A DNA stretch of 23,868 nucleotides from a virus, in the IMG/VR virus record IMGVR_UViG_3300017759_000084, positions 1 through 23,868 of that record; one strand, given 5' to 3'. Below are positions 4,227 to 23,868 of the stretch, one piece after another (within the stretch, counting starts at the first letter, position 1; every line of letters starts with the position of its first letter). The notes beneath the pieces were generated by a model that saw only the letters and a program-made list of their open reading frames with translations, searched no databases and was not told the origin of the DNA. A program made the translations under genes and the position numbers.

Positions 4227-7200
4227 CACAGAGCTACAATAACCCTGGCAACATCCGCCCAGGTCAGAACTATGCTGGTGAAACTGGTGAGGTATACACT
4301 GGCACAGATGGCAGCGAGTACGTTGTTTTCGAGAGCCGTGAGCTTGGCGTCCGTGCCATGTTCATGGACTTTCGCACAAAGATTAAACGCCACAAAGGCG
4401 ACTTGGATGCGATATTTGCAGAGTATGCGCCGCCGGAAGATGACAATCCTACAGACCAATACGTTGCTTTTGTAAAGCAAGCGGTTGGCAAGTCAAATGT
4501 ATACGGCTCAGATTTAACAGAAGTTGTTAAGGCGGCGATTGCGTTTGAAAACGGGCCTAACTCTGCGCTAACAAAGTCTTACACAGCGCCTGCCGTGTTA
4601 GAAGAAGCCTATGCTTTGTCATCTGTGCAGCTTCCTAAAGATACAACGCTTGAACAGGCTAGAGCCGAGGTCTTTGGCGATACTCCTATTACGCCGGAAA
4701 ACAAAGAAACAATAATTGCTAGTGCATCTGCGCCGACAAAACAGCAGCGCACTGTTTCTGCAATAGCGCCTTCTGATGATGCACGGGCCAAGCGGGTACA
4801 GCGTCTAATTGATGCGGGGCAAGAAGACCCTATTAGCATTATAGAAGCCAGAAGCATTGCGAACCAAGACGTTGTTGACGCGCAGATAGAAGAAAACTTA
4901 GGCATATTGGAGCAACGGCAACAACCCACAGAAACCGTTGACGATACTACTGTTGATATCCTAGAGGAAAGACAGCAACCGCCTGCACCTGCTGCCGAAG
5001 AGGTGCAATTAGACCTTTTGGAAGAGCGCCAAGCCCCACAGGTTGCAGCACAAACAGAAACCGCCGCGCCAGAAATGCTTGAACGGGCAGCGCCGGAAGT
5101 CGCTGCATTACCACAGCCTGAAGCCGCTGCCGAAGTTGTTACAGAGCCGGAGCCGCCTGTGCAGGCAGAGACGTTCTTGCGGCCATCACAGCCTATATTT
5201 GCATTTGAGCGTCGTGCAGCAGAACGCGCGGCAAAAGCTGCACAGCCTACATTTTTTGAAGCTGTAGAGGCGTCTATAGATGAAGACTGGATGATGTCTT
5301 GGGCAATGCGGGAGCGAGAAGAGTTCCTGCCAGACGTAGACTTTTCACTCACGATGGAGGAGTACCAAAAGGCAACTGCTGGTTTGCCAGAAGAGTATCA
5401 CGGTTTTGTTGAAAATTCTGTTAGTTCAGCGCATCTGTCCTCATTGCGGCAAGAGGCTTTGCAGTCTTTTGAAAACGACAAGAAACTGGCTTCTTTGGGC
5501 TGGAAGGGTGTCGGCGTTAGGTTTGGCGTGGCTTTGTCAGACCCAGGTGCTATCGGCCTTAGTATTGCCACAGAGGGTGTTGCGGCTCCTTTGATATGGG
5601 GCAATAAACTATCAAGGCTGCAACGCGCGTTTAGAGGTGGCACGGCAGCGGCTGCAACAAATGCGATGATTGAGGGGTACATCGTAAGTCAGAACGCGGT
5701 CAAAGACCCTTACGACATCCTGTATTCAGCTAGTGCTGGCCTTGTTTTTGGCGGTGCGTTGTCTTCTTTTGGCAAGGGCGCAGAAGGTGATGAGTTTGAC
5801 AAAGCGCTTTCTAAGGTTGCCAAGGATGCGGACACAGCACAGCAGCATGAGGTTGTTACAGCAGTTAATAAAGAGATTGTCGGCGATGGCTCTGGCGAAA
5901 CCATTGAACGCTCAGTAGGTGCGGCTGAAAACCCGTTTGACAAGCCAGTACAAGTAGGAGAGCTGCGGGCGGATTTAGACGAGGCGCTTGATATTAGCGG
6001 AGAAAGGCAAGACCCAGCTATAGAAAAGCTGCGGTTCGATATGGCGGGGTTCTTGTTAGGCTCGAAGCAACCCACAGGAAACTTATTGGGCAGGCTGCTG
6101 CCGGAAGACCCTGTAGGGTTCCGCAAAGACCCGACGCAAGTCGTTGCCCCTAGTGCAGACCTCATAAAGACAAACGAATTTAAGGCCGTCCTAAATGATT
6201 ACTACGATGTAGTTAACCCAGCGTACAAAGAATGGTCTAGGTCAGAAGGGTTCACAGGCGTCACAGGTTATTTCAAAAGAACTATGAACTTGCCTCGCAG
6301 GCAGTTTATGGAGCTGGTAGCTGACGCTATCGAAAACCCTACATTGCCGTTTCACCCAGCAGTGCGTCGAGCCGCACAAAGGCAATCAGAGCTACAGCGT
6401 GACCTTCTTGGGAAGATGAAGGACTCAGGCGTCCGAGGCTCAGAGAACATTCCCGAAGATTTGACGTATTTTAGCCACCTTTGGGACTCATTTAAGTTTG
6501 GTGAGGCTACTCATCGTTACGGGGATGACGTTGTGCAAAACCTGCTAACTCGTTCCCTTATTAACGCGACGGACGAGTTAAACGAAGACGCTGCAAGCAT
6601 GATTGCAAAACACATGCTTGATAAAATTAGACGCAGTGAAGCAGGCATGGACTCTGGTGCGGCGAGATTGTTCACCACAGACCAAACAGAGTCTATGCGT
6701 AGTATTTTGGTTGAAGAAGAATTTATGACGCCAGAAGAAGCTGACCGTTTATTAGACTTGTTTCAGCGGCGTCCTGACGGCACCCCTGCAAGACTTAAAC
6801 GCAGACTGCGGTTTGATATGAACGAAACAGTTACTGCTTTCAATAAACAGACACAGACAGAAGAGGTGTTGCGGCTAAAAGATTTGCAAGAGCGAGACGC
6901 TGAACAAGTGTTTACATCTTACGCTGGAGGCATGTCCGGTAGAATTGCACTGGCGCGTGTAGGCATTAAAGACGAAACCACATTCAACAAAATGCTTAAC
7001 CAGAACTTAGCTGAAGCTGAATCAATGCTTGGCAACGCTGGTAAGCCCCGCGCAGAGAAGGAAAACCTTGTAGCCCAAACAATCTACAACGCGATAATTA
7101 ACAGGCGTATGCCTCTTGCGGCTGACCCAACTGGGGTTTACGCGAGGTCTACAAGGTTGCTTCAAGATTATAACTTTGTCCGTTTGATGAACCAGGTTGG

Positions 7201-15959: not shown

Positions 15960-16111
15960 TGCCGATGGGGAAAGGGACTTACGGCTCCAAGCGAGGCCGT
16001 CCAGCAAAGAAGAAAGCAGCTAAGGCAGCTAACGGCAAGGGCTTGACTGCAAAGCAGAAGACTCTGCCACCTGCTTTGCAGAAAAAGATTATGAAGTCTA
16101 AGAAGCGCTAG
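15959..16111 (+). CDS. Tiny basic protein beginning MPMGKGTYGSKRGRP (50 aa)
   Basis: A 50-residue ORF whose ATG shares its A with the upstream TAA. It reads MPMGKGTYGSKRGRP, then a Lys/Ala run, and LPPALQKKIMKSKKR at the end. MPMGKGTYG followed by a Lys-rich stretch and a final LPP-LQK-I-KSKK is a recurring but uncharacterised small protein in marine phages, in my recollection. It contains an AT-hook-like RGRP. It is the last gene of the late transcript, and its TAG lies in the same CTAG as the stop of the convergent minus-strand gene. Confidence 0.72.
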   Translation: MPMGKGTYGSKRGRPAKKKAAKAANGKGLTAKQKTLPPALQKKIMKSKKR

Positions 16112-16227
16112 AACACACGGTGTATGCCTTTTGTGTAGCAGTCGATGCACTCTGTCTTCTTGTTAGCTAAAATAACCCAGCCACCCGTATCAATGCAGAC
16201 GCGGGTGGCGCAGTAATCACAGCTCAT
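16108..16227 (-). CDS. Cys-rich mini-protein (possible zinc ribbon, 39 aa)
   Basis: The preferred start is the ATG at 16227, inside the 3' end of the DnaA-IV-like gene (ATG...TGA overlap of 11 bases). The longer frame to 16308 only adds residues encoded by an out-of-frame read of that gene. The 39-residue product has MSCDYCATRVC, then GGWVILANKK and ECIDCYTKG, i.e. C-x2-C and C-x2-C pairs that could hold one zinc, plus an extra Cys11. It is the last gene of the minus-strand recombination operon. Zinc binding is inferred. Confidence 0.62.
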   Translation of the reverse strand: MSCDYCATRVCIDTGGWVILANKKTECIDCYTKGIHRVF

Positions 16228-16627
16228 GTATCGCAGCCCCGAACTCTTTTTCTTTGATTTTGTCGATTTCCTTGGCTGCCTCTTCCCAGATTTTTTCAAA
16301 GGCATCACTGCGCTCCCTCTTCGATAGGTTCATTGCGCTGCTATGGTCTCTGTTCAAGGTGATGCCCATCTGCACAAACCCGTATGGGGTGTTCTCCAGG
16401 CACAGCAGAACAAACAACTGCCGTGCGTCTACCTTTTCCTTGTTACGAGCGTGGCTGCGCAACTGCCCCAAGGTGTAGCCTGTCACCTTGGTCACAACAT
16501 TGATGATGTCGAATATCTCTAACTCGCGACAGTATTCTTTCCAAAACTTAGGTGAGCGCATACGCATACGCTCCCAGTTATTAGTAACCCTCTCTGCCTT
16601 CAGTATATGTAGCTGTGCTTGTGACAC
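16217..16627 (-). CDS. DnaA domain-IV-like DNA-binding protein (stand-alone)
   Basis: A 136-residue protein with a GTG start and a strong GGAGGGAAGAAA site before it. Residues ~38-105 align well by eye with DnaA domain IV: IINVVTKVTGYTLGQLRS matches the first helices, KVDARQLFVLLCLE matches the ARP-RQ-A-x-x-LA helix (Arg69), and LNRDHSSAMN (residues 91-100) matches the GGRDHTTV box-recognition motif. The AAA+ ATPase domain is absent. An N-terminal basic helix (~1-35) and a charged C-terminal helix flank it. It probably binds DnaA boxes or related sites and may act as a phage initiator, decoy or regulator. It lies between SSB-like/SSAP genes and the Cys-rich gene. Confidence 0.78.
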   Translation of the reverse strand: MSQAQLHILKAERVTNNWERMRMRSPKFWKEYCRELEIFDIINVVTKVTGYTLGQLRSHARNKEKVDARQLFVLLCLENTPYGFVQMGITLNRDHSSAMNLSKRERSDAFEKIWEEAAKEIDKIKEKEFGAAIHEL

Positions 16628-16790
16628 TTTCTTCCCTCCGTAAAACCTCTAGCCCTGCCTTCTGGCATTGTTGGGCTAACTCGAAATATTGTTTGGATGT
16701 CATGTCTTTGAAGTGACATGCCCCGTCTATTGATATTAGCAGCCCGTCATCACGGGCCGCTAACAGTATCATTTTGCTGATTGGTTCCAT
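16581..16790 (-). CDS. Small unknown protein of the recombination operon
   Basis: A 69-residue protein: MEPISKMILLAARDDGLLISIDGACHF, then MTSKQYFELAQQCQKAGLEVLRRE and a Thr-rich tail. It has no recognisable domain; one or two helices and a short beta segment are likely. The ATG shares a base with the TAA of the SSB-like gene (TAATG). Its last 47 bases overlap the DnaA-IV-like gene in another frame, so that its coding sequence contains the GGAGGG ribosome site of that gene, suggesting translational coupling. Confidence 0.55.
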   Translation of the reverse strand: MEPISKMILLAARDDGLLISIDGACHFKDMTSKQYFELAQQCQKAGLEVLRREESVTSTATYTEGREGY

Positions 16791-17125
16791 TAAAACGGAA
16801 TGTCGTCGTCCAAGCTCATCGCGCTAGGCGTGGCTGGTACATGCTTTTGCTGCATCGACTCGCCGACTTTCTTGAGACCTGGCTGAGATATGCCGTCGGT
16901 GATGCTGTCTGTGCCGTGATGCTCGACAATCTCTGATATCTGTACACCTAACGAGCCATCGTCGTTCTCGAAAGCGCGGATAGAGTACAGCCCATTGTGG
17001 CGGAAGTGTACATCAGCGGGTGAGCCATCCTTGTACGGAGTCCACTTGCTGTTGCTGTACTTTGCACCGCCATCGTCATTGGGAAAGATGCGCATTGTGG
17101 TTACTTTGTTGTATTTACGAGCCAT
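16790..17125 (-). CDS. SSB-like single-strand DNA-binding protein candidate (DDDIPF tail)
   Basis: A 111-residue protein: YNKVTTMRIFPNDDGG, then WTPYKDGSPADVHFRHNGLYSIRAFENDDGSLGVQISEIVEHH, a flexible Pro/Ser/Ala segment and a final SLDDDIPF. The acidic tail ending in DDDIPF is the diagnostic C-terminus of bacterial SSBs, through which they recruit partner enzymes. The body looks beta-rich and small, as for an OB fold, but I see no clear SSB core motif, so the fold is inferred. AGGAGATAGAC precedes the ATG. It is encoded between the annealing protein and the DnaA-IV-like protein, as an SSB would be. Confidence 0.62.
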   Translation of the reverse strand: MARKYNKVTTMRIFPNDDGGAKYSNSKWTPYKDGSPADVHFRHNGLYSIRAFENDDGSLGVQISEIVEHHGTDSITDGISQPGLKKVGESMQQKHVPATPSAMSLDDDIPF

Positions 17126-17134
17126 GTCTATCTC

Positions 17135-17836
17135 CTAGTTAAATTTGGCTTCTGCTTCTTGGAATAGGGCCATCATCAGGTTCGCACGTTCTGGGTTGCG
17201 TTCCTTTACCTGCTTCATAACGACCTTGTAGCTGTTGAAGGTTTCGTGGACCTTAGATTTCATCTTGCATTGGGACAGCTTAAACTTGATGTCCTTGTAC
17301 AACTCCCCGTCAATCTGGTCCTGTTTGTCTGCGGCATCCAACTGCTCCAATGTTTGGATGGGGTCAGGCACAGGGGGCGCAGCCTTCACAGCCGGAGGGG
17401 ACTGTGTGGGAGCAGGCGCGCCGCCCTGATTCGATGAGTTTAACGCTTCCTGCTTACGGGGTACAGCGTCCATTTCGTTTGCACTTGCGTATTCGCCTCC
17501 GGCAAGGCCAATGCTGGCTAAGGCACGGCCAATCGCAGATGTCTCGCAGTTCTCTAGCGCAGACGTTTTGTTGACGTTGCCTTGGCCTCTGATTTCTTCA
17601 GCCATTCCAGAGCCTACGACTCCGCCTTGTGTCATAGTTACAAGAGCCTGCACGACAACCCTCTGCCCGTCATCCACCAGTATTTTGGTTTCGATGCCAA
17701 GGTCCAGCCCGAACACAGACCTCATGGCCTCCATTCTGTGTACAACTTGCGTGTACTTCTTGCCGCCGCGCTGGGTTATGCCGTGGGTCTCGTGCAGCTT
17801 CTGCACCGCCGCCATTGCTTTTTGTAGTTCACTCAT
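17135..17836 (-). CDS. ERF/Rad52-like single-strand annealing recombinase
   Basis: A 233-residue protein. The N-terminal ~130 residues form the likely annealing domain: KKYTQVVHRMEAMRSVFG, VVVQALVTMTQGGVVGSG, then VNKTSALENCETSAIGRALA and GGEYASANEM. The ETSAIGRALA-x-x-G helix with a following ASA-E-M is a hallmark of ERF-like/Rad52-like annealing proteins of phages. A Pro/Ala/Gln-rich linker (~131-170) leads to a helical C-terminal domain. It would anneal resected ssDNA made by the exonuclease encoded upstream. The start overlaps the stop of the previous small gene (ATGA). ERF and Sak/Rad52 families cannot be separated by eye. Confidence 0.7.
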   Translation of the reverse strand: MSELQKAMAAVQKLHETHGITQRGGKKYTQVVHRMEAMRSVFGLDLGIETKILVDDGQRVVVQALVTMTQGGVVGSGMAEEIRGQGNVNKTSALENCETSAIGRALASIGLAGGEYASANEMDAVPRKQEALNSSNQGGAPAPTQSPPAVKAAPPVPDPIQTLEQLDAADKQDQIDGELYKDIKFKLSQCKMKSKVHETFNSYKVVMKQVKERNPERANLMMALFQEAEAKFN

Positions 17837-18018
17837 TGCTTATTCTCCATAGCAAATATCTTGTCGAAGACTTGGTCCATAGAACGGAACTCTTTGTTGT
17901 GAACGCCGTTCATCAGCTGGATGTGTTTAGTCAGGAACTCGACCTGGTTCTCAAGCCTGTCCATCTTGGCAGTCAGCTCGTCTATTGCCTGCGCGTGATA
18001 CTGTTCTGTCTCTGTCAT
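17833..18018 (-). CDS. Small coiled-coil protein
   Basis: A 61-residue hydrophilic protein with AIDELTAKMDRLENQVEFLTKHIQLM, a clear heptad helix, and HNKEFRSMDQVFDKIFAMEN after it. No domain is recognised. A very strong AGGAGGGGG site precedes the ATG, so it should be made in quantity. It overlaps the annealing-protein start by 4 bases. Likely an oligomerising partner protein; function unknown. Confidence 0.6.
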   Translation of the reverse strand: MTETEQYHAQAIDELTAKMDRLENQVEFLTKHIQLMNGVHNKEFRSMDQVFDKIFAMENKQ

Positions 18019-18027
18019 TGCCCCCTC

Positions 18028-18555
18028 CTATGCGGCTTTATAGTCTTCTGCTTCAAATCCAAAGCCACCAGATTTGCTCCATTTTACATTATTATCTCGG
18101 CCCCCGATAAGGGAGAAGTCATCGCACGAAAACCAGCACATCAACTTGCTATCCCAAAGCCCGTAATCTTCTACGTCTATACCGACTTCATCATCCTCCG
18201 AGTAAATTGTACCAAGCCACACATCGTTACCATACTCAGCCTTGGCATCAGCCTCGATTTTCTCAAGCTCTTCCTTCATAGACTCATATTCAGCTTGTGT
18301 GTAGTTGCCAATAAACTCCACGCAGATGTTCTCTGGGTCTTCACCTTGGGATGCAGACAATGCACTAGGTGACATATCGCCCATAGCCACGATAGCATAA
18401 GCCTCTTTGCTGGACGCTTCCTTAGCTTCGTACCGTTTTTTGATGAACGAACCAGCGGCCTCAAAAGATTCAAAGTCACCCAGAAACTTTTGGTCTGGGT
18501 AGTAACACGCATCTATAAATAGGTGATACCGATTCAATTCTGTTAGATTAATCAT
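18028..18555 (-). CDS. Acidic protein of unknown function
   Basis: A 175-residue protein. The ATG at 18555 is chosen because it overlaps the exonuclease TGA (ATGA) and follows a GGAGG site; the frame extends 33 codons further but only out of frame within that gene. It opens INLTELNRYHLFIDACYYPDQKF, continues with a helix (EAAGSFIKKRYEA), ICVEFIGNYTQAEYESMKEEL and a very acidic C-terminal part (EDDEVGIDVEDYGLWD, WFSCDDFSLIGG). I do not recognise the family. Acidity could mean a protein partner or a DNA mimic; there is no direct evidence. Confidence 0.6.
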   Translation of the reverse strand: MINLTELNRYHLFIDACYYPDQKFLGDFESFEAAGSFIKKRYEAKEASSKEAYAIVAMGDMSPSALSASQGEDPENICVEFIGNYTQAEYESMKEELEKIEADAKAEYGNDVWLGTIYSEDDEVGIDVEDYGLWDSKLMCWFSCDDFSLIGGRDNNVKWSKSGGFGFEAEDYKAA

Positions 18556-19442
18556 ATCCTCCAAGCCTCCTTTGCAATCTTGATGATATCGGGTCCGTGC
18601 CGCTGCGCTATCTGCGCAAAGTCCGGCTGGACCAAGCCGAACAGCGTCCTCCATGAGCCATTGGCTGCTTTCAGTAAGTTCTGGATGATAGTCCAGCGCA
18701 TTACTATCTCTTCGTACTTGCGCTCTAGGTTCTCTGTCTTCATCGCTTCGCAGTTTGTCTCGTCAACGATGTTAAAGCCAGCCGCTGTGACGTACAGCAA
18801 GGCAGGTTTGTCACCTGTTGCCTTCCAATACACTGCCTGCTGCATTAACTGCTGCTCAGTAGGCTCTGAGCGCGGCTTAGGCACACGCCAAGTACGGGTG
18901 CCATCCTTCTTTAGTGGGTTCCGTATCGGGAAAGAGCATTTAAGGTCAATTTGTTTGCCGTCACCGCAATAGTCTTGGTACAGCATGACAGGCACATCCA
19001 GCCTGTCGTCTTGATGCCACCGCTGGTACTCGCCTTCCAGCTCTCCGTCGCCAAAGTATTCATTGAGTCCATCAACAGCGTGTTTGCCCATCTCTCCAAT
19101 GTGTTCTTTAATTTCTTCGTACTCTTCAGCGTCCTTGCCGTCGTCCCATTGGCGCGGCATGTACGACATAAACTCTGTCATGCCATACCGGATAGCTTCT
19201 GGCAGGCCAAGCCCCTGCTTTCGCCCATAGATGGGGCTGTATTCGTGCAGCCCTACTGCATGGTCAGCTATCTCCTGCACAATCTGCCCTGCCCGTGGCC
19301 TTGCGCCAAACGGGAAGTTCATCTTGTATTCTTTGCGGAGATATAGCTTTAGGATATGCTCATCTAACGGCTGGGTGCCGCCAGATGCGCTGTTGTGCGT
19401 GGCCCCGAAAGACTCACGGTATGCGGGTACTTCAAATTCCAT
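18552..19442 (-). CDS. PD-(D/E)XK exonuclease (RecB/Cas4-like), partner of the annealing protein
   Basis: A 296-residue protein. The ATG at 19442 is preferred over the longer frame to 19532 because GGAGGGAACT sits directly before it. The N-terminal part has FGARPRAGQIVQEIADHAV, a motif-I-like helix. The core is VPVMLYQDYCGDGKQIDLKCSFP, giving Asp157, Asp166 and Lys168 in the D...(D)xK arrangement, followed by a QLMQQAVYWKATG helix typical of the RecB/PDDEXK_1 Q-x-x-x-Y motif, and ALLYVTAAGF. It probably resects dsDNA to feed the ERF-like protein, as in Exo-Bet style pairs. It is the first gene of the minus-strand operon behind the promoter at 19473-19501. Confidence 0.78.
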   Translation of the reverse strand: MEFEVPAYRESFGATHNSASGGTQPLDEHILKLYLRKEYKMNFPFGARPRAGQIVQEIADHAVGLHEYSPIYGRKQGLGLPEAIRYGMTEFMSYMPRQWDDGKDAEEYEEIKEHIGEMGKHAVDGLNEYFGDGELEGEYQRWHQDDRLDVPVMLYQDYCGDGKQIDLKCSFPIRNPLKKDGTRTWRVPKPRSEPTEQQLMQQAVYWKATGDKPALLYVTAAGFNIVDETNCEAMKTENLERKYEEIVMRWTIIQNLLKAANGSWRTLFGLVQPDFAQIAQRHGPDIIKIAKEAWRI

Positions 19443-19472
19443 AGTTCCCTCCGTTCTGTAGTTCCCAGAGCT

Positions 19473-19501
19473 GTAGTACCACCGACTTGCGCATGTGTCA
19501 A
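19473..19501 (-). promoter_or_regulatory. Sigma70-like promoter for the recombination operon
   Basis: On the minus strand a perfect TTGACA (19496-19501) and TACTAC (19473-19478, 3 of 6 to consensus) are separated by 17 bases, ending ~30 bases before the exonuclease ATG. The -35 is ideal, the -10 weak, which would suit activation or early expression. The same 80-base gap must also drive the plus-strand gene at 19522, for which only an isolated TATATA (19506-19511) is visible. Confidence 0.55.
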
Positions 19502-19521
19502 CTTTTATATAGGGTGAAGAT

Positions 19522-19719
19522 ATGACCACCATAATATTTACATTCGATGACGAGGTTGAATGCCCTGAATGTGGCGGCGAGGGCCGCTGCGAGTATGAGT
19601 TTGAGGTGATTGACCATATCAGAGGCGGCGAGATAGTCGGGCTGGTGCGCGAGTGCCGGATGTGTGAAGGCAGTGGTGTTATCTATGTCGAGGGAGACGT
19701 GGAGGATGACGAACAGTAG
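19522..19719 (+). CDS. DnaJ-like zinc-finger protein (two CXXCXGXG motifs)
   Basis: A 65-residue protein with two perfect DnaJ-type motifs, CPECGGEG (Cys14, Cys17) and CRMCEGSG (Cys45, Cys48), joined by an antiparallel-looking stretch. An acidic tail (VEGDVEDDEQ) follows. The pair of motifs would form a single zinc centre as in the cysteine-rich region of DnaJ; no J domain is present. Such miniature zinc proteins are common in phage, mostly unassigned. AGGGTGAAGAT precedes the ATG. It overlaps the resolvase-like gene by 14 bases, suggesting joint expression. Confidence 0.72.
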   Translation: MTTIIFTFDDEVECPECGGEGRCEYEFEVIDHIRGGEIVGLVRECRMCEGSGVIYVEGDVEDDEQ

Positions 19720-20095
19720 ACAGAAAGGTGCGGCATTTGAGCGCACCTGCGCCAATATGTTGTTTGATATCACTGGCCTGAAAGCCAAGAGAGACCTCGA
19801 ACAATATAGAGCTAGTGACCACGGTGACCTGATAGGTGTGCCTGGTTGGACTGTGGAGTGCAAACGCTACGCCAATGGCGTCACTTGGAAGCCTAGCTGG
19901 TGGGAGCAGTGCCTCTCTGCCGCCAAGGCCGCTGGGAATCAGCCTGTTCTGATATATAAGTATGACCGCTGCCCCATCCGATGCGTGGTAAGGATATCGT
20001 CCATTTCTCCTTACTACGAAGACAAGGACAACACGGCTGAGATTGATTTCGAGACATGGTGTATGCTGGTGGCTGAGGGGCTAGACAATGTTTGA
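19706..20095 (+). CDS. PD-(D/E)XK nuclease, Holliday-junction-resolvase-like
   Basis: A 129-residue protein; the start is the ATG at 19706 with AGGGAG nine bases before it. The upstream frame to 19664 lies inside the zinc-protein gene. The catalytic pattern is complete: KGAAFERTCANML (Glu12), SDHGDLIG (Asp41) and WTVECKRYAN (Glu51, Lys53). This E...D...ExK layout with a WWEQCLSAA helix is that of phage resolvase-like nucleases. It may trim recombination or replication branches before packaging. It overlaps the next gene by 8 bases. Confidence 0.78.
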   Translation: MTNSRQKGAAFERTCANMLFDITGLKAKRDLEQYRASDHGDLIGVPGWTVECKRYANGVTWKPSWWEQCLSAAKAAGNQPVLIYKYDRCPIRCVVRISSISPYYEDKDNTAEIDFETWCMLVAEGLDNV

Positions 20096-20309
20096 AACAG
20101 TCATAGCTATCTGCATCGCTCTTGATATCCACGGTGCGCCTGTGTCGCGCTGCTGGCTCAACAAAGAGGGTACTAGGTTTGAGAGTCCAGCCGCCTGCCT
20201 AGAATACGCGCAATGGAAAGAGGCTACCGTAGCTGAAGAGCTTATAGATGAGTACGGTGCGCCTCCGGTTGTGTCAGTCGTCTGTGGTCAGAGCGGCGAG
20301 GGTACTTAA
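20088..20309 (+). CDS. Small Cys-pair protein with hydrophobic N-terminus
   Basis: A 73-residue protein: a hydrophobic start (FETVIAICIALDI), then GTRFESPAACLEYAQWK, an acidic helix and VVSVVCGQ near the end; Cys at 9, 22, 37 and 66. The layout resembles the genes at 12878 and 14197. The start overlaps the resolvase-like gene; the last 36 bases overlap the 3' end of the methyltransferase gene on the other strand. Possibly exported; function unknown. Confidence 0.6.
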   Translation: MFETVIAICIALDIHGAPVSRCWLNKEGTRFESPAACLEYAQWKEATVAEELIDEYGAPPVVSVVCGQSGEGT

Positions 20310-21389
20310 AATCTGCGCCACAACATCTACAGTCCAGCCATTCCCCAGCATCTTGTACCGCTGAGTATTGCTGACGCCTTCGGTGTAGTTATCCGGCACG
20401 GTTTGTAATCGTTCACATTCAATTGGCGTTAGCTTCCGCCATGTGCTGTCTGATGTAGCTGTCTTGGGTTCAAGATTGCCGCCACTTGCTGCGCACAAGC
20501 TAGGTGCCTTGCCGTCGGGGTGGTATACCCTTCGATTGTAGCTGTGGCCTTTGATATCGGAGGCGTGTCCAGCAAGAACAAGTCCGGTTGTCTGCTCCTT
20601 ATCGGACCGCCCCTCATTCACAAGCATGGCCCATTCGTTGTCCCGTATGTCTTGTTGTGTTTGTTCAAATTTTAAGGGTAATTGTGTCTGCATTAATTTG
20701 GGCGCACCTGTTCGCCTGTCGCATTTAATGTAGTCACCTTGCCGCCCATTTTTAACGTATTCCATCGCGGATAAATTGCTTGCCTTGTCTTTCTCCTCAG
20801 ACACTAGGCATCCAGCACCCCTGTTTCGCTCAACAAAATTATTCGACATCACTGTAAAAGAGTCAGGGGTTTGCTCCAATATTTCTCGCATCACCACGCC
20901 TCGGTCTGCTGGAATATCAAAGGGGATGTTAGTCCAGTACAGGCGGTGTCGGTTCTGCGCCGATACCAGACTGCTATTAATAGCTACAGGCTCGACGCCC
21001 AGCATCTCGCTAATAACATCCTGGCTCTGCTGTTTCATGCGGACGTTTTCTAGCAGGAACCAGCGCGGCTGCGCCTCTCTCAGCAACCGCACATACTCAA
21101 AGAACAGTTTGCTTCGAGGGTCATCAAAGTCTAATTGCTTGCCAGCAAAACTGAACCCTTGGCACGGGCTGCCGCCGATAAGCAGGTCAATGCCCTCGCC
21201 CTCGAATGTCTCAGGCCATAGCACATCTTCAACCCCGCCAATGTGTATGATATCGGGCCAGTTTTTTCTGGCTATCTGGATGGCAAACTTGTCTACCTCG
21301 CTGGCAAAGTATCGGCGCGGTGTTATGCCGCACCTGTCCAGAGCAATACGCCCACAGGCCATTCCATCAAATAGCGACAATACATTCAT
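20274..21389 (-). CDS. C5-cytosine DNA methyltransferase, Dnmt3-like type
   Basis: A 371-residue enzyme. The ATG at 21389 is chosen because of GGAGGAAGAGAA before it; the frame extends to 21428 without a better site. Motif I VLSLFDGMACGRIAL binds SAM; GGSPCQGFSFAG carries the catalytic Cys76; LLENVRMK has the motif VI Glu114; AQNRHRLYW is motif VIII; LTPIECERLQTVPDNYT and RYKMLGNGWTVDVVA are motifs IX-X. The SLFDGMACG...SAQNRHRLYW style is that of Dnmt3-like phage enzymes. A target-recognition region lies between motifs VIII and IX. No restriction endonuclease gene is adjacent, so it is a solitary methyltransferase, probably protecting phage DNA or altering host expression. Confidence 0.93.
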   Translation of the reverse strand: MNVLSLFDGMACGRIALDRCGITPRRYFASEVDKFAIQIARKNWPDIIHIGGVEDVLWPETFEGEGIDLLIGGSPCQGFSFAGKQLDFDDPRSKLFFEYVRLLREAQPRWFLLENVRMKQQSQDVISEMLGVEPVAINSSLVSAQNRHRLYWTNIPFDIPADRGVVMREILEQTPDSFTVMSNNFVERNRGAGCLVSEEKDKASNLSAMEYVKNGRQGDYIKCDRRTGAPKLMQTQLPLKFEQTQQDIRDNEWAMLVNEGRSDKEQTTGLVLAGHASDIKGHSYNRRVYHPDGKAPSLCAASGGNLEPKTATSDSTWRKLTPIECERLQTVPDNYTEGVSNTQRYKMLGNGWTVDVVAQILSTLAALTTDD

Positions 21390-21411
21390 TTCTCTTCCTC
21401 CATTTTCTGTC

Positions 21412-21441
21412 TTGACATAGTTATCCACAGGTTATTAAAAT
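21412..21441 (+). promoter_or_regulatory. Strong sigma70-like promoter with DnaA box in the spacer
   Basis: The plus strand has TTGACA (21412-21417, 6 of 6), an 18-base spacer and TAAAAT (21436-21441, 5 of 6). Seven bases downstream lies the G at 21448, where the predicted RNA would start. The spacer contains a perfect DnaA box. It diverges from the methyltransferase gene, whose ATG is 23 bases away. Confidence 0.65.
21421..21429 (+). promoter_or_regulatory. DnaA box TTATCCACA
   Basis: A perfect match to the consensus DnaA box. It sits between the -35 and -10 of the plus-strand promoter, so a bound DnaA-like protein would compete with RNA polymerase. The phage itself encodes a DnaA domain-IV-like protein (16217-16627). 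Other sites seen in the window differ by at least one base and lie inside genes. Confidence 0.7.
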
Positions 21442-21458
21442 CTATAAGCAGAACAGCA

Positions 21459-21539
21459 ATGCGCCGCAGCAATCCACCGCAGTTCTGCAATCGCAATGAT
21501 AAACAAAAATCTTTTGATAAAAAGAAAGCGCTGCAATGA
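21459..21539 (+). CDS. Possible 26-residue basic peptide within the short transcript
   Basis: ATG to TGA, opening MRRSNPPQFC and ending DKKKALQ. It begins 11 bases after the predicted transcription start and ends one base before the terminator stem, filling the transcript exactly. There is no Shine-Dalgarno-like sequence before the ATG and the start lies within the 5' stem-loop, so it may not be translated. Composition is Lys/Arg/Asn-rich and hydrophilic. Confidence 0.3.
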   Translation: MRRSNPPQFCNRNDKQKSFDKKKALQ

Positions 21540-21540
21540 T

Positions 21541-21576
21541 GCTATGCACAGTAGCTGTGCATAGCTGTTTTTTTTT
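21541..21576 (+). terminator. Rho-independent terminator (11-bp stem, T9)
   Basis: GCTATGCACAG (21541-21551), loop TAG, perfect complement CTGTGCATAGC (21555-21565), then TG and nine T (21568-21576). Orientation is clearly plus strand; on the minus strand the stem is preceded by A9 but not followed by a T run. It ends the short transcript and could also stop run-on from the plus-strand genes at 19522-20309. Confidence 0.88.
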
Positions 21577-21580
21577 AGAT

Positions 21581-21754
21581 TTATTTTTCATCTAATTCTA
21601 CTGCTTGTAACAGCAGCTCTACTGTGCGGTTTATCGGCACCTCTCCGCTCTCGTAATAGCGAATGGTGCGCTCTGACAGGCCCAGCCTCTCTGCAAATGC
21701 CCGCTGGCTGTAGCCCAAGAACTCGCGCCTTTCTCTGAAAGTATCACCCGTCAT
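21581..21754 (-). CDS. Cro/C1-type (XRE) helix-turn-helix regulator, 57 aa
   Basis: The ATG at 21754 gives MTGDTFRERREFLGYSQRAF; the longer frame to 21841 lies within the upstream gene and lacks a start site. The protein is one XRE domain: FRERREFLGYSQRAFAERLGLSERTIRYYESG contains both HTH helices (SQRAFAERLG and SERTIRYYE). At 57 residues it is of Cro size, with no C-terminal oligomerisation or protease domain. It likely binds operators near the early promoters. It overlaps the preceding gene by 11 bases, and its end is 5 bases from the plus-strand terminator T run. Confidence 0.85.
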   Translation of the reverse strand: MTGDTFRERREFLGYSQRAFAERLGLSERTIRYYESGEVPINRTVELLLQAVELDEK

Positions 21755-21935
21755 GGCCTGTCCAGTCTGACCAAGCCGCTGATACAGTTTCCTGCTTGTA
21801 AGTATCGCGCGGTCTGCGCTTGCACATTGTGAACAGCTCATTGGCCTGCCTCTCTGCGTCGTCTAGGCTGTCAGTCTTTATGTGGAATGTTTGTTCCAGC
21901 GTCCCTTTAATGGTGACTATGTAGTCCTTTTCCAT
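21744..21935 (-). CDS. Small unknown protein upstream of the Cro-like gene
   Basis: A 63-residue protein: KDYIVTIKGTLEQTFHIKTDSLDDAERQANELF, then a basic KRRPRD stretch. The N-terminal part looks like a small beta-hairpin plus helix. GGAGGG lies nine bases before the ATG, a convincing site. It overlaps the Cro-like gene (11 bases) and is preceded by ~95 bases with three hairpins. No family recognised. Confidence 0.58.
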   Translation of the reverse strand: MEKDYIVTIKGTLEQTFHIKTDSLDDAERQANELFTMCKRRPRDTYKQETVSAAWSDWTGHDG

Positions 21936-21955
21936 TTGTTAGTCCCTCCATTTAA

Positions 21956-22036
21956 GGCCCGTGCAGGGCCGGTGATGCCTGACGGGTGGAATACCACCCG
22001 CCAAGCGGTTAAAGCCTGTCAGTGAGCCTTACAGGC
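21956..22036 (-). promoter_or_regulatory. Three consecutive stem-loops in an intergenic region
   Basis: Within 81 bases are three inverted repeats: GGCCC-GTGCA-GGGCC (21956-21970), CGGGTGG-AATA-CCACCCG (21983-22000) and GCCTGT-(11)-ACAGGC (22014-22036, overlapping the stop of the 40-residue membrane gene). None is followed by a T run on either strand, so they are not classic terminators. They may stabilise or process the minus-strand messenger, or be protein-binding sites. This is the only sizeable gap inside the minus-strand early cluster. Confidence 0.6.
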
Positions 22037-22151
22037 CGATAAAGTAGGCGAATAACTGCCATAGCCATGCCTCGCTGCCCATTAGCCCCCAAATTAGCAG
22101 GCCCATGACTAGCAGAAACAGCGCGTTGTTGAATATTTCGAGCTTGTCCAT
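22029..22151 (-). CDS. Tiny membrane protein (40 aa)
   Basis: The ATG at 22151, one base after the stop of the upstream gene and preceded by GCGGAGACAG, is chosen over the frame to 22247. The 40-residue product is MDKLEIFNNALFLLVMGLLI followed by WGLMGSEAWLWQLFAYFIGL: one clear TM and a second hydrophobic, Trp/Phe-rich C-terminus. Small early membrane proteins of phages often act on host envelope functions or superinfection; here no specific role can be read. Confidence 0.6.
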   Translation of the reverse strand: MDKLEIFNNALFLLVMGLLIWGLMGSEAWLWQLFAYFIGL

Positions 22152-22152
22152 G

Positions 22153-22368
22153 TTACTGTCTCCGCATGTGTGGCTTGCAATACTTATCGAAGAACGCACG
22201 TTCCAAGCGCTTGTATCGCGTCGGCTTGCCGCCTCGGTACTGGTCAAGCCAGCGGCGCCCGTGCTTGTCTGTGGTTGCGTATCGATTCGCCAGCCATGCG
22301 TTAATGCTTAGGTATCGGTCCGCATTGCGCTGCGCGTCCTGCGCTGTAATTGTGAAGTGTGGTTTCAT
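22153..22368 (-). CDS. Small basic protein of unknown function
   Basis: A 71-residue basic protein: MKPHFTITAQDAQRNADRYL, then INAWLANRYATTDKHGRRWL and a Lys/Arg-rich end (GKPTRYKRLERAFFDKYCK). It looks helical; the charge suggests nucleic-acid contact. The start has only a weak upstream GAGG about 12 bases away. It follows the 99-residue gene by 4 bases. Confidence 0.55.
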   Translation of the reverse strand: MKPHFTITAQDAQRNADRYLSINAWLANRYATTDKHGRRWLDQYRGGKPTRYKRLERAFFDKYCKPHMRRQ

Positions 22369-22372
22369 TTTT

Positions 22373-22672
22373 CTATGCCTCTATTTGTTTGTCGTTGTAG
22401 TAATCTTCCCAAGCGGTATCGCTCAAGAACCAGTCTTGGTCTATTTCTCGCTCCGCTTTTAGGTTGAATAGTCTCCGCTCGTATCGCCTCATGAGCGATA
22501 AAAGCTCTATTCTGTGTAATCTTTGGCAAAGCGCTACAGCGTCATTCAAGGTTACCCCCTCGGTTTTGTCTTGGGACTGCGGCACATAATGTTCTAGGCT
22601 GGTGAGAATCAGCTCTATATCTGTGTACGATAGAGTAACGTCTATCACTGGCTCATTGCGTTGTTTAATCAT
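22373..22672 (-). CDS. Unknown early protein, helical
   Basis: A 99-residue protein. The ATG at 22672 has AGGGAGCAAAACA before it, whereas the longer frame to 22744 reads through the gene upstream. It reads VIDVTLSYTDIELILTSLEHY, VTLNDAVALCQRLHRIELLSLMRRYERRLF, and an acidic end (DTAWEDYYNDKQIEA). No domain recognised; two or three helices with a charged C-terminus. Part of the minus-strand early cluster. Confidence 0.58.
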   Translation of the reverse strand: MIKQRNEPVIDVTLSYTDIELILTSLEHYVPQSQDKTEGVTLNDAVALCQRLHRIELLSLMRRYERRLFNLKAEREIDQDWFLSDTAWEDYYNDKQIEA

Positions 22673-22683
22673 TGTTTTGCTCC

Positions 22684-23451
22684 CTAGTGTGTGATGAATA
22701 CAACAGGCTTTGCTGATTGCCAGCAAGCCCCACAAGCTCCGCATGACTCCGCAAGAGTCGCCTCGCCTTTTTTGGCGTGCTGTCCTGTTTCTTTGCTAAT
22801 CTGCGTAGGACATACAAAGGCCCGTTTAGATGCCAGCATATCCCGTGCGCGGCTATCGTCATTGGATATGGCTGCAAAGCTATCGGTAAAAGAACCGCTG
22901 AAACGGACAGCAAAACGGATGCCGCAAGCTAGGCGGAGCGATAGCAACGCCTCACCAATAGCGCGTTCCTGGCTGTCAATAGCGTCCGGTTGATTTGCTG
23001 TGTAGCCATAAACATGCAACGCCGGAAACATGCCAAGCCATTTTGCCCATTGCGCAACGTATGCAGCAGAATAAAAGTCGCCCAATACATGTAACCGAAC
23101 AAGGAACCCTTGCGGATATTTGGCTTGATAGTGTGTCAAGTCTTGTTCTATCTGCTGAATAAGCGCGTCGTCTGCTTTATAGCGCGTCGCGTTCATCATG
23201 TTGTTCCCATAACAGTCTGCCCAATGAGCGCATGAGCGCGGGCAAGTAGCGCGTTCTTCCAGCGTCAATGTGAGAATGGGAAAGCCCTTCAGCTTGCCGC
23301 GCGTTACGCGCTTGCCAAGTTTTGTGTTTGTGCTGGCCTTCAATGCGCGTTCAGTCTTTGCCATGCCGTCGGCGACACTCTTAGCGCGTAGGCTATGGTA
23401 AACGGACTTTCCAGCGAGTACCGCCAGTTCGGTTTTGGTTAACTGTTTCAT
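22684..23451 (-). CDS. Gene-88-like (GP88 family) Cys-rich protein
   Basis: A 255-residue protein. Cys clusters stand out: CPRSCAHWADCYG (Cys70, Cys74, Cys80) and CPTQ...CGACGACW (Cys214, 237, 240, 243). Between them are LVRLHVLGDFYSAAYVAQW (His121, Asp125), GYTANQ and RFAVRFSGSF; it ends VVFITH. The pattern CP-x-x-C...DCYG / R-H-x-x-GDF / C-x-x-C-x-x-CW...F-x-x-H is that of the GP88 family, named from a mycobacteriophage gene, of unknown function. The two Cys groups suggest a metal or Fe-S site. GGGAG precedes the ATG, within a leader repeated before the next gene upstream. Confidence 0.8.
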   Translation of the reverse strand: MKQLTKTELAVLAGKSVYHSLRAKSVADGMAKTERALKASTNTKLGKRVTRGKLKGFPILTLTLEERATCPRSCAHWADCYGNNMMNATRYKADDALIQQIEQDLTHYQAKYPQGFLVRLHVLGDFYSAAYVAQWAKWLGMFPALHVYGYTANQPDAIDSQERAIGEALLSLRLACGIRFAVRFSGSFTDSFAAISNDDSRARDMLASKRAFVCPTQISKETGQHAKKGEATLAESCGACGACWQSAKPVVFITH

Positions 23452-23457
23452 TGCAAT

Positions 23458-23477
23458 GCTCCCGAATTGCGTTGTTG
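23458..23477 (-). repeat. Ribosome-binding leader repeat, copy 1 (before GP88 gene)
   Basis: GCTCCCGAATTGCGTTGTTG on the plus strand, filling most of the gap between two minus-strand genes. A near copy, GCTCCCGTTTGCGTTGTTG, lies at 23662-23680 before the next gene, at a comparable distance from its ATG. Both hold the minus-strand GGGAGC ribosome site. Confidence 0.7.
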
Positions 23478-23654
23478 TTATTTGCCGTATGTTTCATCGG
23501 ATTGCTCCGGCGTCAAGTCAAAGCGCCCGCAGGGTGATTTCGTGCGGTCTTCTATCCACACGCCATCATGTTCGAACCCGCCCTGCCGCTTTTCTAATGT
23601 GTCGATTAGGTCGGCCAACTCTTTTAGCTGGTCTGCAATTTCTTGATTAGTCAT
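23478..23654 (-). CDS. Small acidic coiled-coil protein, first gene of the early minus-strand operon
   Basis: The ATG at 23654 has GGGAGCTTGCACA before it; the longer frame to 23828 runs through the promoter region and was not used. The 58-residue product reads MTNQEIADQLKELADLIDTL as a coiled helix, then FEHDGVWIEDRTKSPCGRFDL and an acidic end. No family recognised. It is the first gene after the promoter at 23689-23717. Confidence 0.58.
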   Translation of the reverse strand: MTNQEIADQLKELADLIDTLEKRQGGFEHDGVWIEDRTKSPCGRFDLTPEQSDETYGK

Positions 23655-23661
23655 TGTGCAA

Positions 23662-23680
23662 GCTCCCGTTTGCGTTGTTG
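23662..23680 (-). repeat. Ribosome-binding leader repeat, copy 2 (before 58-residue gene)
   Basis: A near match to the element at 23458-23477, one base shorter with one further difference. It lies between the operon promoter and the first ATG. Confidence 0.7.
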
Positions 23681-23688
23681 ATGATTCA

Positions 23689-23717
23689 CATATAGGCAAG
23701 CATTGCCGCATGGTCAA
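23689..23717 (-). promoter_or_regulatory. Sigma70-like promoter of the early minus-strand operon
   Basis: On the minus strand TTGACC (23712-23717, 5 of 6) and TATATG (23689-23694, 4 of 6) are separated by exactly 17 bases. It is about 35 bases before the first ATG. The spacer holds a dyad (23695-23707) that may be an operator. Confidence 0.6.
23695..23707. promoter_or_regulatory. Operator-like dyad in the early promoter spacer
   Basis: GGCAA-GCA-TTGCC, a perfect 5-bp dyad with a 3-base centre between the -10 and -35. The overlapping 10-mer GCGGCAATGC (minus strand, 23700-23709) occurs again on the plus strand at 23851-23860. A Cro-size repressor is encoded at the end of the same gene cluster, so it is a candidate ligand. 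Confidence 0.5.
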
Positions 23718-23745
23718 GAGAAAAAAGCACACAATGCAAAAAAAG

Positions 23746-23774
23746 TTTACACTGTGGCTGCGCGTGTATATATT
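23746..23774 (+). promoter_or_regulatory. Possible divergent plus-strand promoter
   Basis: TTTACA (23746-23751, 5 of 6) and TATATT (23769-23774, 5 of 6) are 17 bases apart, pointing out of the window. A reading frame opens at ATG 23788 and is open to the window end (27 codons) but lacks a ribosome site. The region 23655-23868 otherwise holds no convincing gene. Confidence 0.45.
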
Positions 23775-23846
23775 AATAAGCAATTGAATGTATTGGATTG
23801 GGGATTGCTGGTGCATATCTGAACACACTCAGCGCGTTGTCGCGTT

Positions 23847-23864
23847 CCCTGCGGCAATGCAGGG
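23847..23864. other. Hairpin CCCTGC-GGCAAT-GCAGGG
   Basis: A 6-bp perfect stem whose loop contains part of the GCGGCAATGC repeat. It lies at the edge of the window, so its context on the right is unknown. No T run is visible within the window. Confidence 0.5.
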
Positions 23865-23868
23865 CCAA

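Follow-up and report, generated by a model that had tools for sequence, protein, structure and literature searches.

The locus described here lay in a 23,868-base IMG/VR fragment (the window, meaning the whole stretch of DNA that was analysed) from an uncultivated bacterial virus of marine or estuarine origin. Its upstream neighbour on the minus strand (20274-21391) encoded a C5-cytosine DNA methyltransferase (Pfam PF00145, E 1e-44). The usual downstream neighbour, also on the minus strand and convergent with the RNA (21581-21841), was a Cro-like HTH gene (Pfam HTH_31, E 3e-9) whose real start was probably internal, near 21754-21766. Between these genes was a self-contained noncoding promoter-RNA-terminator unit on the plus strand, with a conserved DnaA box in its promoter. 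This cassette was present as a single copy in the window, and there was one RNA-profile locus per genome examined; further profile matches in these genomes fell on this locus again, on the other strand.

A closely related contig of 34.9 kb (G001) had a podovirus layout. It encoded a nuclease and a DnaA-domain protein, together with one protein for single-strand annealing and one that was single-strand-binding-like, but its open reading frames included no evident polymerase or helicase gene. The lack of an evident polymerase gene implied that these phages depended on the host RNA polymerase and replisome. The G001 portal was 56-59% identical to the portals of HTVC010P-type Pelagibacter phages. 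The phages resembled HTVC010P-type podoviruses without polymerases of their own. However, the GC content of the window was 49% versus ~31-32% in HTVC010P-type isolates, so the host was probably another bacterium. The early genes were mostly on the minus strand.

Promoter, DnaA box and RNA

The promoter consisted of a -35 hexamer TTGACA (21412-21417), an 18-nt spacer (21418-21435) and a -10 hexamer TAAAAT (21436-21441), all on the plus strand. The spacer held a perfect DnaA box TTATCCACA (21421-21429), placed between -35 and -10 and contained in the 11-mer GTTATCCACAG (21420-21430). The start of the noncoding RNA, predicted from the -10 hexamer, gave a putative product of ~129 nt (21448-21576). 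It would end in an intrinsic terminator (21541-21576) with an 11-bp stem, formed by the arms GCTATGCACAG (21541-21551) and CTGTGCATAGC (21555-21565), a TAG loop and a T9 run (21568-21576). The promoter, box, spacer, stem and T9 proposed by an earlier sequence-only reading of this DNA were all found in place. Since the RNA end at 21576 preceded the end of the Cro-like frame at 21581, there was no overlap with the Cro-like coding sequence.

With 11 of 12 consensus bases, the promoter was the top match of its kind in 16000-23868, and the terminator was the top terminator-like site of the same region. However, neither kind of match was more numerous there than in shuffled sequence (7 promoter-like matches against a shuffle mean of 8.2, and 7 terminator-like matches against 8.0). 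Therefore, it was the quality and the conservation of these elements that counted and not their tally. In a separate part of the window (23730-23774), a minus-strand terminator-like site overlapped a plus-strand promoter-like site near the early/late gene junction.

TTATCCACA was the sole perfect DnaA box of the window, where 0.19 were expected from base composition, and the cassette box was the sole perfect one in most relatives as well. We estimated the chance of such a 9-mer falling inside an 18-nt spacer, on either strand, at ~8e-5. There was no DnaA-box cluster in the window; matches to the relaxed pattern TTWTNCACA occurred elsewhere only at 6532 and 7893. TTATCCACA belongs to the DnaA boxes that are bound best, and in E. 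coli the transcription of mioC and dnaA is repressed by DnaA (PMC5835720). Like these promoters, the cassette had a consensus DnaA box in a sigma-70 promoter region, here within the core promoter and conserved in relatives; unlike them, it was phage-borne, carried a single box between -35 and -10, and drove an RNA gene. The central position of the box between the two hexamers would most simply mean repression by occlusion.

The RNA itself matched no Rfam family at the gathering score, and permissive E-values returned weak, chance-level matches only. Moreover, no open reading frame was shared by the members: each distinct sequence had stops in all sense frames, and only some had open minus-strand frames. 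The sequence-only reading had noted no annotated gene family in the interval. A peptide product was rejected since no frame was open in all members; in particular, a 22-aa sense frame found in the window and in L102 was broken in L088. In L088, direct repeats with a 13-nt period formed a 38-nt inverted repeat, 89% complementary, within the RNA (2347-2469), and the miRNA matches obtained for this contig in Rfam merely reflected the long hairpin.

All RNA types were built alike, with a 5' segment followed by an A/T-rich centre and then by the terminator hairpin at the 3' end. The terminator stem showed compensatory changes across relatives, CACAG/CTGTG becoming CATAG/CTATG and GCTA/TAGC becoming GCAA/TTGC. 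Folded by itself, the window RNA was mildly better than shuffles (z -1.93). The pairing that the sequence-only reading had proposed between the first seven bases and an internal GTTCTGC was present in the window as a GCAGAAC/GTTCTGC hairpin (21448-21454 with 21482-21488, span 21448-21488, plus strand) but was absent in relatives. The 5' segment, AACAGCAATGC (21453-21463), could form 10 of 11 pairs with GCATAGCTGTT (21559-21569); in the window this pairing was weak, its z of -1.2 being no better than chance. The pairing was extended in types B-D, where this segment could pair with the distal arm of the terminator and the first U residues; in most members it was far better there than in shuffles (z ~-3 to -9), with -1.7 in L086.

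Conservation and exchange of neighbours

A search of IMG/VR with a promoter-with-box pattern returned 21 stretches, and the same RNA was present in 17 contigs. Together with the window, this made 18 contigs with 14 distinct cassettes, and the box was unchanged in all of them, suggesting that the timing of the RNA depends on sensing of host DnaA by these viruses. Because the box had been imposed by the search pattern, its conservation was checked by three routes that did not use it. Through Cro-like homology, the box was found in 12 of the 12 close-group contigs whose promoter region was covered. A pattern taken from the interior of the RNA reached 11 member contigs, each of which had the box (its 17 further matches were unrelated sequence), and the hairpin that terminates the other RNA type led to five contigs, again all with the box. 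The last two routes, which used neither box nor promoter, thus gave 16 members, and all 16 carried the box.

Among the 10 distinct sequences reached by box-free routes, the -35 hexamer (6/6), GTTATCCACAG (11/11) and the -10 segment (8/8) were invariant. In the same set, none of the 4 bases after GTTATCCACAG was invariant, and only 38 of 93 positions of the RNA body were (~60% varied). The probability of 11 invariant positions running by chance at ~40% invariance was ~4e-5, a rough value that ignores phylogeny. The sequence-only reading would have been refuted by relatives that did not conserve promoter, box and hairpins together; the relatives kept promoter, box and terminator hairpin together. 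This conservation was the strongest support for the cassette being real.

The same data bore on the possibility that DnaA is not involved and that some other protein reads the 11-mer, or that it is retained simply as promoter spacer. The use of other spacers by more distant, box-less relatives agreed with such a reading. We nevertheless considered it quite unlikely, given that the 11-mer included the best consensus DnaA 9-mer without a mismatch and that the flanking spacer bases were free to vary.

Beyond these viral contigs, blastn and tblastn searches of sequenced phages found no isolate with the cassette, the Cro-like protein or the DnaA-domain protein of the window, and the promoter pattern had no exact counterpart in bacterial genomes. 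The isolates HTVC010P, HTVC204P, HTVC106P and C72C1 had no DnaA box within a TTGAC-type promoter. The pattern also matched in an unrelated phage (L092, L100), where the same box lay in the spacer of a promoter that apparently served a protein gene. Upstream of that promoter were another two DnaA-like boxes (GTTATCCACAGGTTATCCACA).

The neighbours of the cassette varied, with at least five kinds upstream and three downstream. The methyltransferase was found upstream in the window and in L084, L087, L095 and L096. Its place was taken by an uncharacterised gene of 250-263 aa in L086, L089 and L103, by an HNH-like repeat protein in L091 and L099, by an acetyltransferase-like gene in L102 (the last two labels were read from the sequence alone) and by small plus-strand genes in L088. 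The downstream gene was usually Cro-like, with other genes in L086 and in L091, L095 and L099. Since the neighbours changed while the cassette stayed, it travelled as a piece. Moreover, a fixed antisense target was unlikely in those relatives where the downstream gene was not Cro-like.

A conserved promoter and stem-loop unit amid changing neighbours recalls the PeSL elements of T4-type phages. The cassette was similarly a compact intergenic promoter and stem-loop with shuffled neighbours. It differed in being present as one copy and not many, in its host sigma-70 promoter and DnaA box, and in that its promoter fed the stem-loop. The cassette might be transcription punctuation of this kind, insulating its neighbours and serving as a swap point for recombination, with an RNA that has no role. 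The diversity of neighbours around one conserved unit and the strong terminator at a convergent junction both speak for this explanation. However, the promoter fired into a terminator rather than into a gene, punctuation does not need an invariant 11-mer within the promoter, and the single copy stood against the many PeSLs of T4-type phages (PMC4503421). We regarded punctuation as highly improbable.

Relatives without the box and candidate readers

Phages with more distant Cro-like genes had a strong promoter in the same position or close to it, but this promoter lacked the box. It was followed by an RNA of similar inverted-repeat design whose centre was again rich in A and T. When only the RNA was used as a profile, one of these box-less relatives was recognised at E 1.4e-5 and others weakly. 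In their genomes, this near-consensus promoter was the sole one of its kind preceding an inverted-repeat RNA. In seven of them (L130, L127, L126, L125, L138, L131 and L123, minus strand), the -35 hexamer lay in the palindrome TTGACGGTCAA, which suggests a different operator at the same position. Others (L122, L129, L136 and L139-L141, minus strand) had a box-less RNA made of 14-nt repeats (AACTTGTTAAGCAT) behind a near-consensus sigma-70 promoter. The DnaA box thus appears to have been added by one clade to the regulation of an older RNA gene. Because the box-less relatives kept a comparable promoter-RNA unit, the function of the RNA did not need DnaA.

These relatives fitted a trans-acting small RNA or RNA decoy, in which the phage's most strongly transcribed unit of host type would yield an abundant structured RNA that acts on mRNAs of the host or the phage, or else on a protein of the host. 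DnaA would then provide only the timing, and the genomic position would be incidental. The changing neighbours, the near-consensus promoter kept in box-less genomes, and arms that evolved fast within a conserved architecture are all in line with a trans-acting RNA. On the other hand, no target was identified, and no conserved unpaired seed was common to all types. On balance, we judged a trans-acting role rather unlikely.

A DNA-level replication origin was also considered, in which the box, the AT-rich stretch and the inverted repeats would recruit the host replisome and transcription would activate or prime replication. The lack of evident polymerase genes in G001, the AT-rich centre that lay between repeats in all types and the uniqueness of the perfect box in most genomes were consistent with such an origin. 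However, there was one box and no cluster beside an unwinding region, box-less relatives retained the element, and the GC skew tracked gene direction and gave no origin signal. Furthermore, the idea that oop acts as a primer was dropped for lambda (PMC3985674). An origin was thus very unlikely, and the suggestion of a primer transcript made in the sequence-only reading was set aside on the same grounds of a single box without a cluster and of distant relatives that kept the RNA without the box. The other roles suggested there, replication timing or sensing of host DnaA, may still apply.

A further suggestion was that a DnaA-like phage protein reads the box. The window encoded a stand-alone DnaA domain IV protein (16217-16627, minus strand; Pfam Bac_DnaA_C, E 9e-10), a candidate second reader. 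It aligned with DnaA domain IV in PDB 3pvp (RDHSSAM versus RDHTTVM), a Mycobacterium protein-DNA complex. The identification as a DnaA domain held up. However, the protein was encoded by box-carrying and box-less relatives alike, with the RDH[ST][ST] recognition motif intact in the latter, so co-variation of box and protein was rejected and the protein could not be named as a dedicated partner of the box. Host DnaA would be the simpler candidate reader. HTVC204P gp23 was likewise annotated as DnaA. Searching viral contigs with the phage DnaA-domain protein gave no match, and the peptide patterns used were probably too specific.

A proposed phage small RNA behind a DnaA-repressible promoter

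The explanation we favoured, with a little less than even confidence, was that the cassette is a phage small-RNA gene, similar to lambda OOP, with a DnaA-repressible promoter that tunes the step from early expression to replication. In lambda, the promoter pO makes a short RNA opposite the early operon, adjoining the regulator gene cII, and boxes footprinted by DnaA lie just downstream of pO (PMC3985674); the oop-pO sequence also contains a LexA site (PMC5869508). Like OOP, the predicted RNA of the cassette was short, ran from a promoter of its own to an intrinsic terminator and faced an early regulator gene; its promoter region likewise carried a site for a host regulator. Unlike lambda, where the DnaA boxes are downstream, the box was within the core promoter. 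Moreover, OOP overlaps the 3' coding end of cII by 52 bases, whereas the cassette RNA had no such overlap and no sequence relation to OOP. In lambda, OOP lowers expression of the regulator through RNase III. At most, the cassette would resemble OOP in its action, and it falls outside that family.

According to this small-RNA model, the strong host sigma-70 promoter would yield a structured RNA of ~130 nt ending at the intrinsic terminator. We infer that DnaA binds within the core promoter, between -35 and -10, and blocks RNA polymerase, the regulatory sign being repression. Plentiful free DnaA would then keep the RNA off, and the RNA would come on once DnaA is withdrawn, for example because replicating DNA of the phage or the host takes it up or because the phage domain-IV protein competes for sites. 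The RNA would run against the Cro-like gene and, in the window, the methyltransferase, ending five bases before the Cro-like frame. By polymerase collision or antisense pairing, it may damp or separate early transcription through the locus, and the damped transcription would tune the early-to-replication step.

Promoters of some alphaproteobacterial phages are controlled by CtrA in lytic deferment (PMC9437464) and similarly read a host cell-cycle master regulator, though a different one. Against a role for DnaA, the motif scan in that study saw no positional enrichment of DnaA sites in alphaproteobacterial phages, but such a scan could miss a single site.

The most far-reaching version of the model would make the RNA a riboregulatory sensor of host replication status. 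Its transcription would be gated by free host DnaA and would set the early-to-replication switch, possibly helped by the phage copy of the DnaA DNA-binding domain. We considered this version unlikely. LexA is among the host regulators that phages are known to read, and some alphaproteobacterial phages read CtrA. A conserved, single DnaA site within the promoter of a phage RNA gene would add the replication initiator to these regulators. It would also provide a compact example, open to testing, of how a phage times itself to host replication, and the phages concerned are akin to the abundant marine HTVC010P-type podoviruses.
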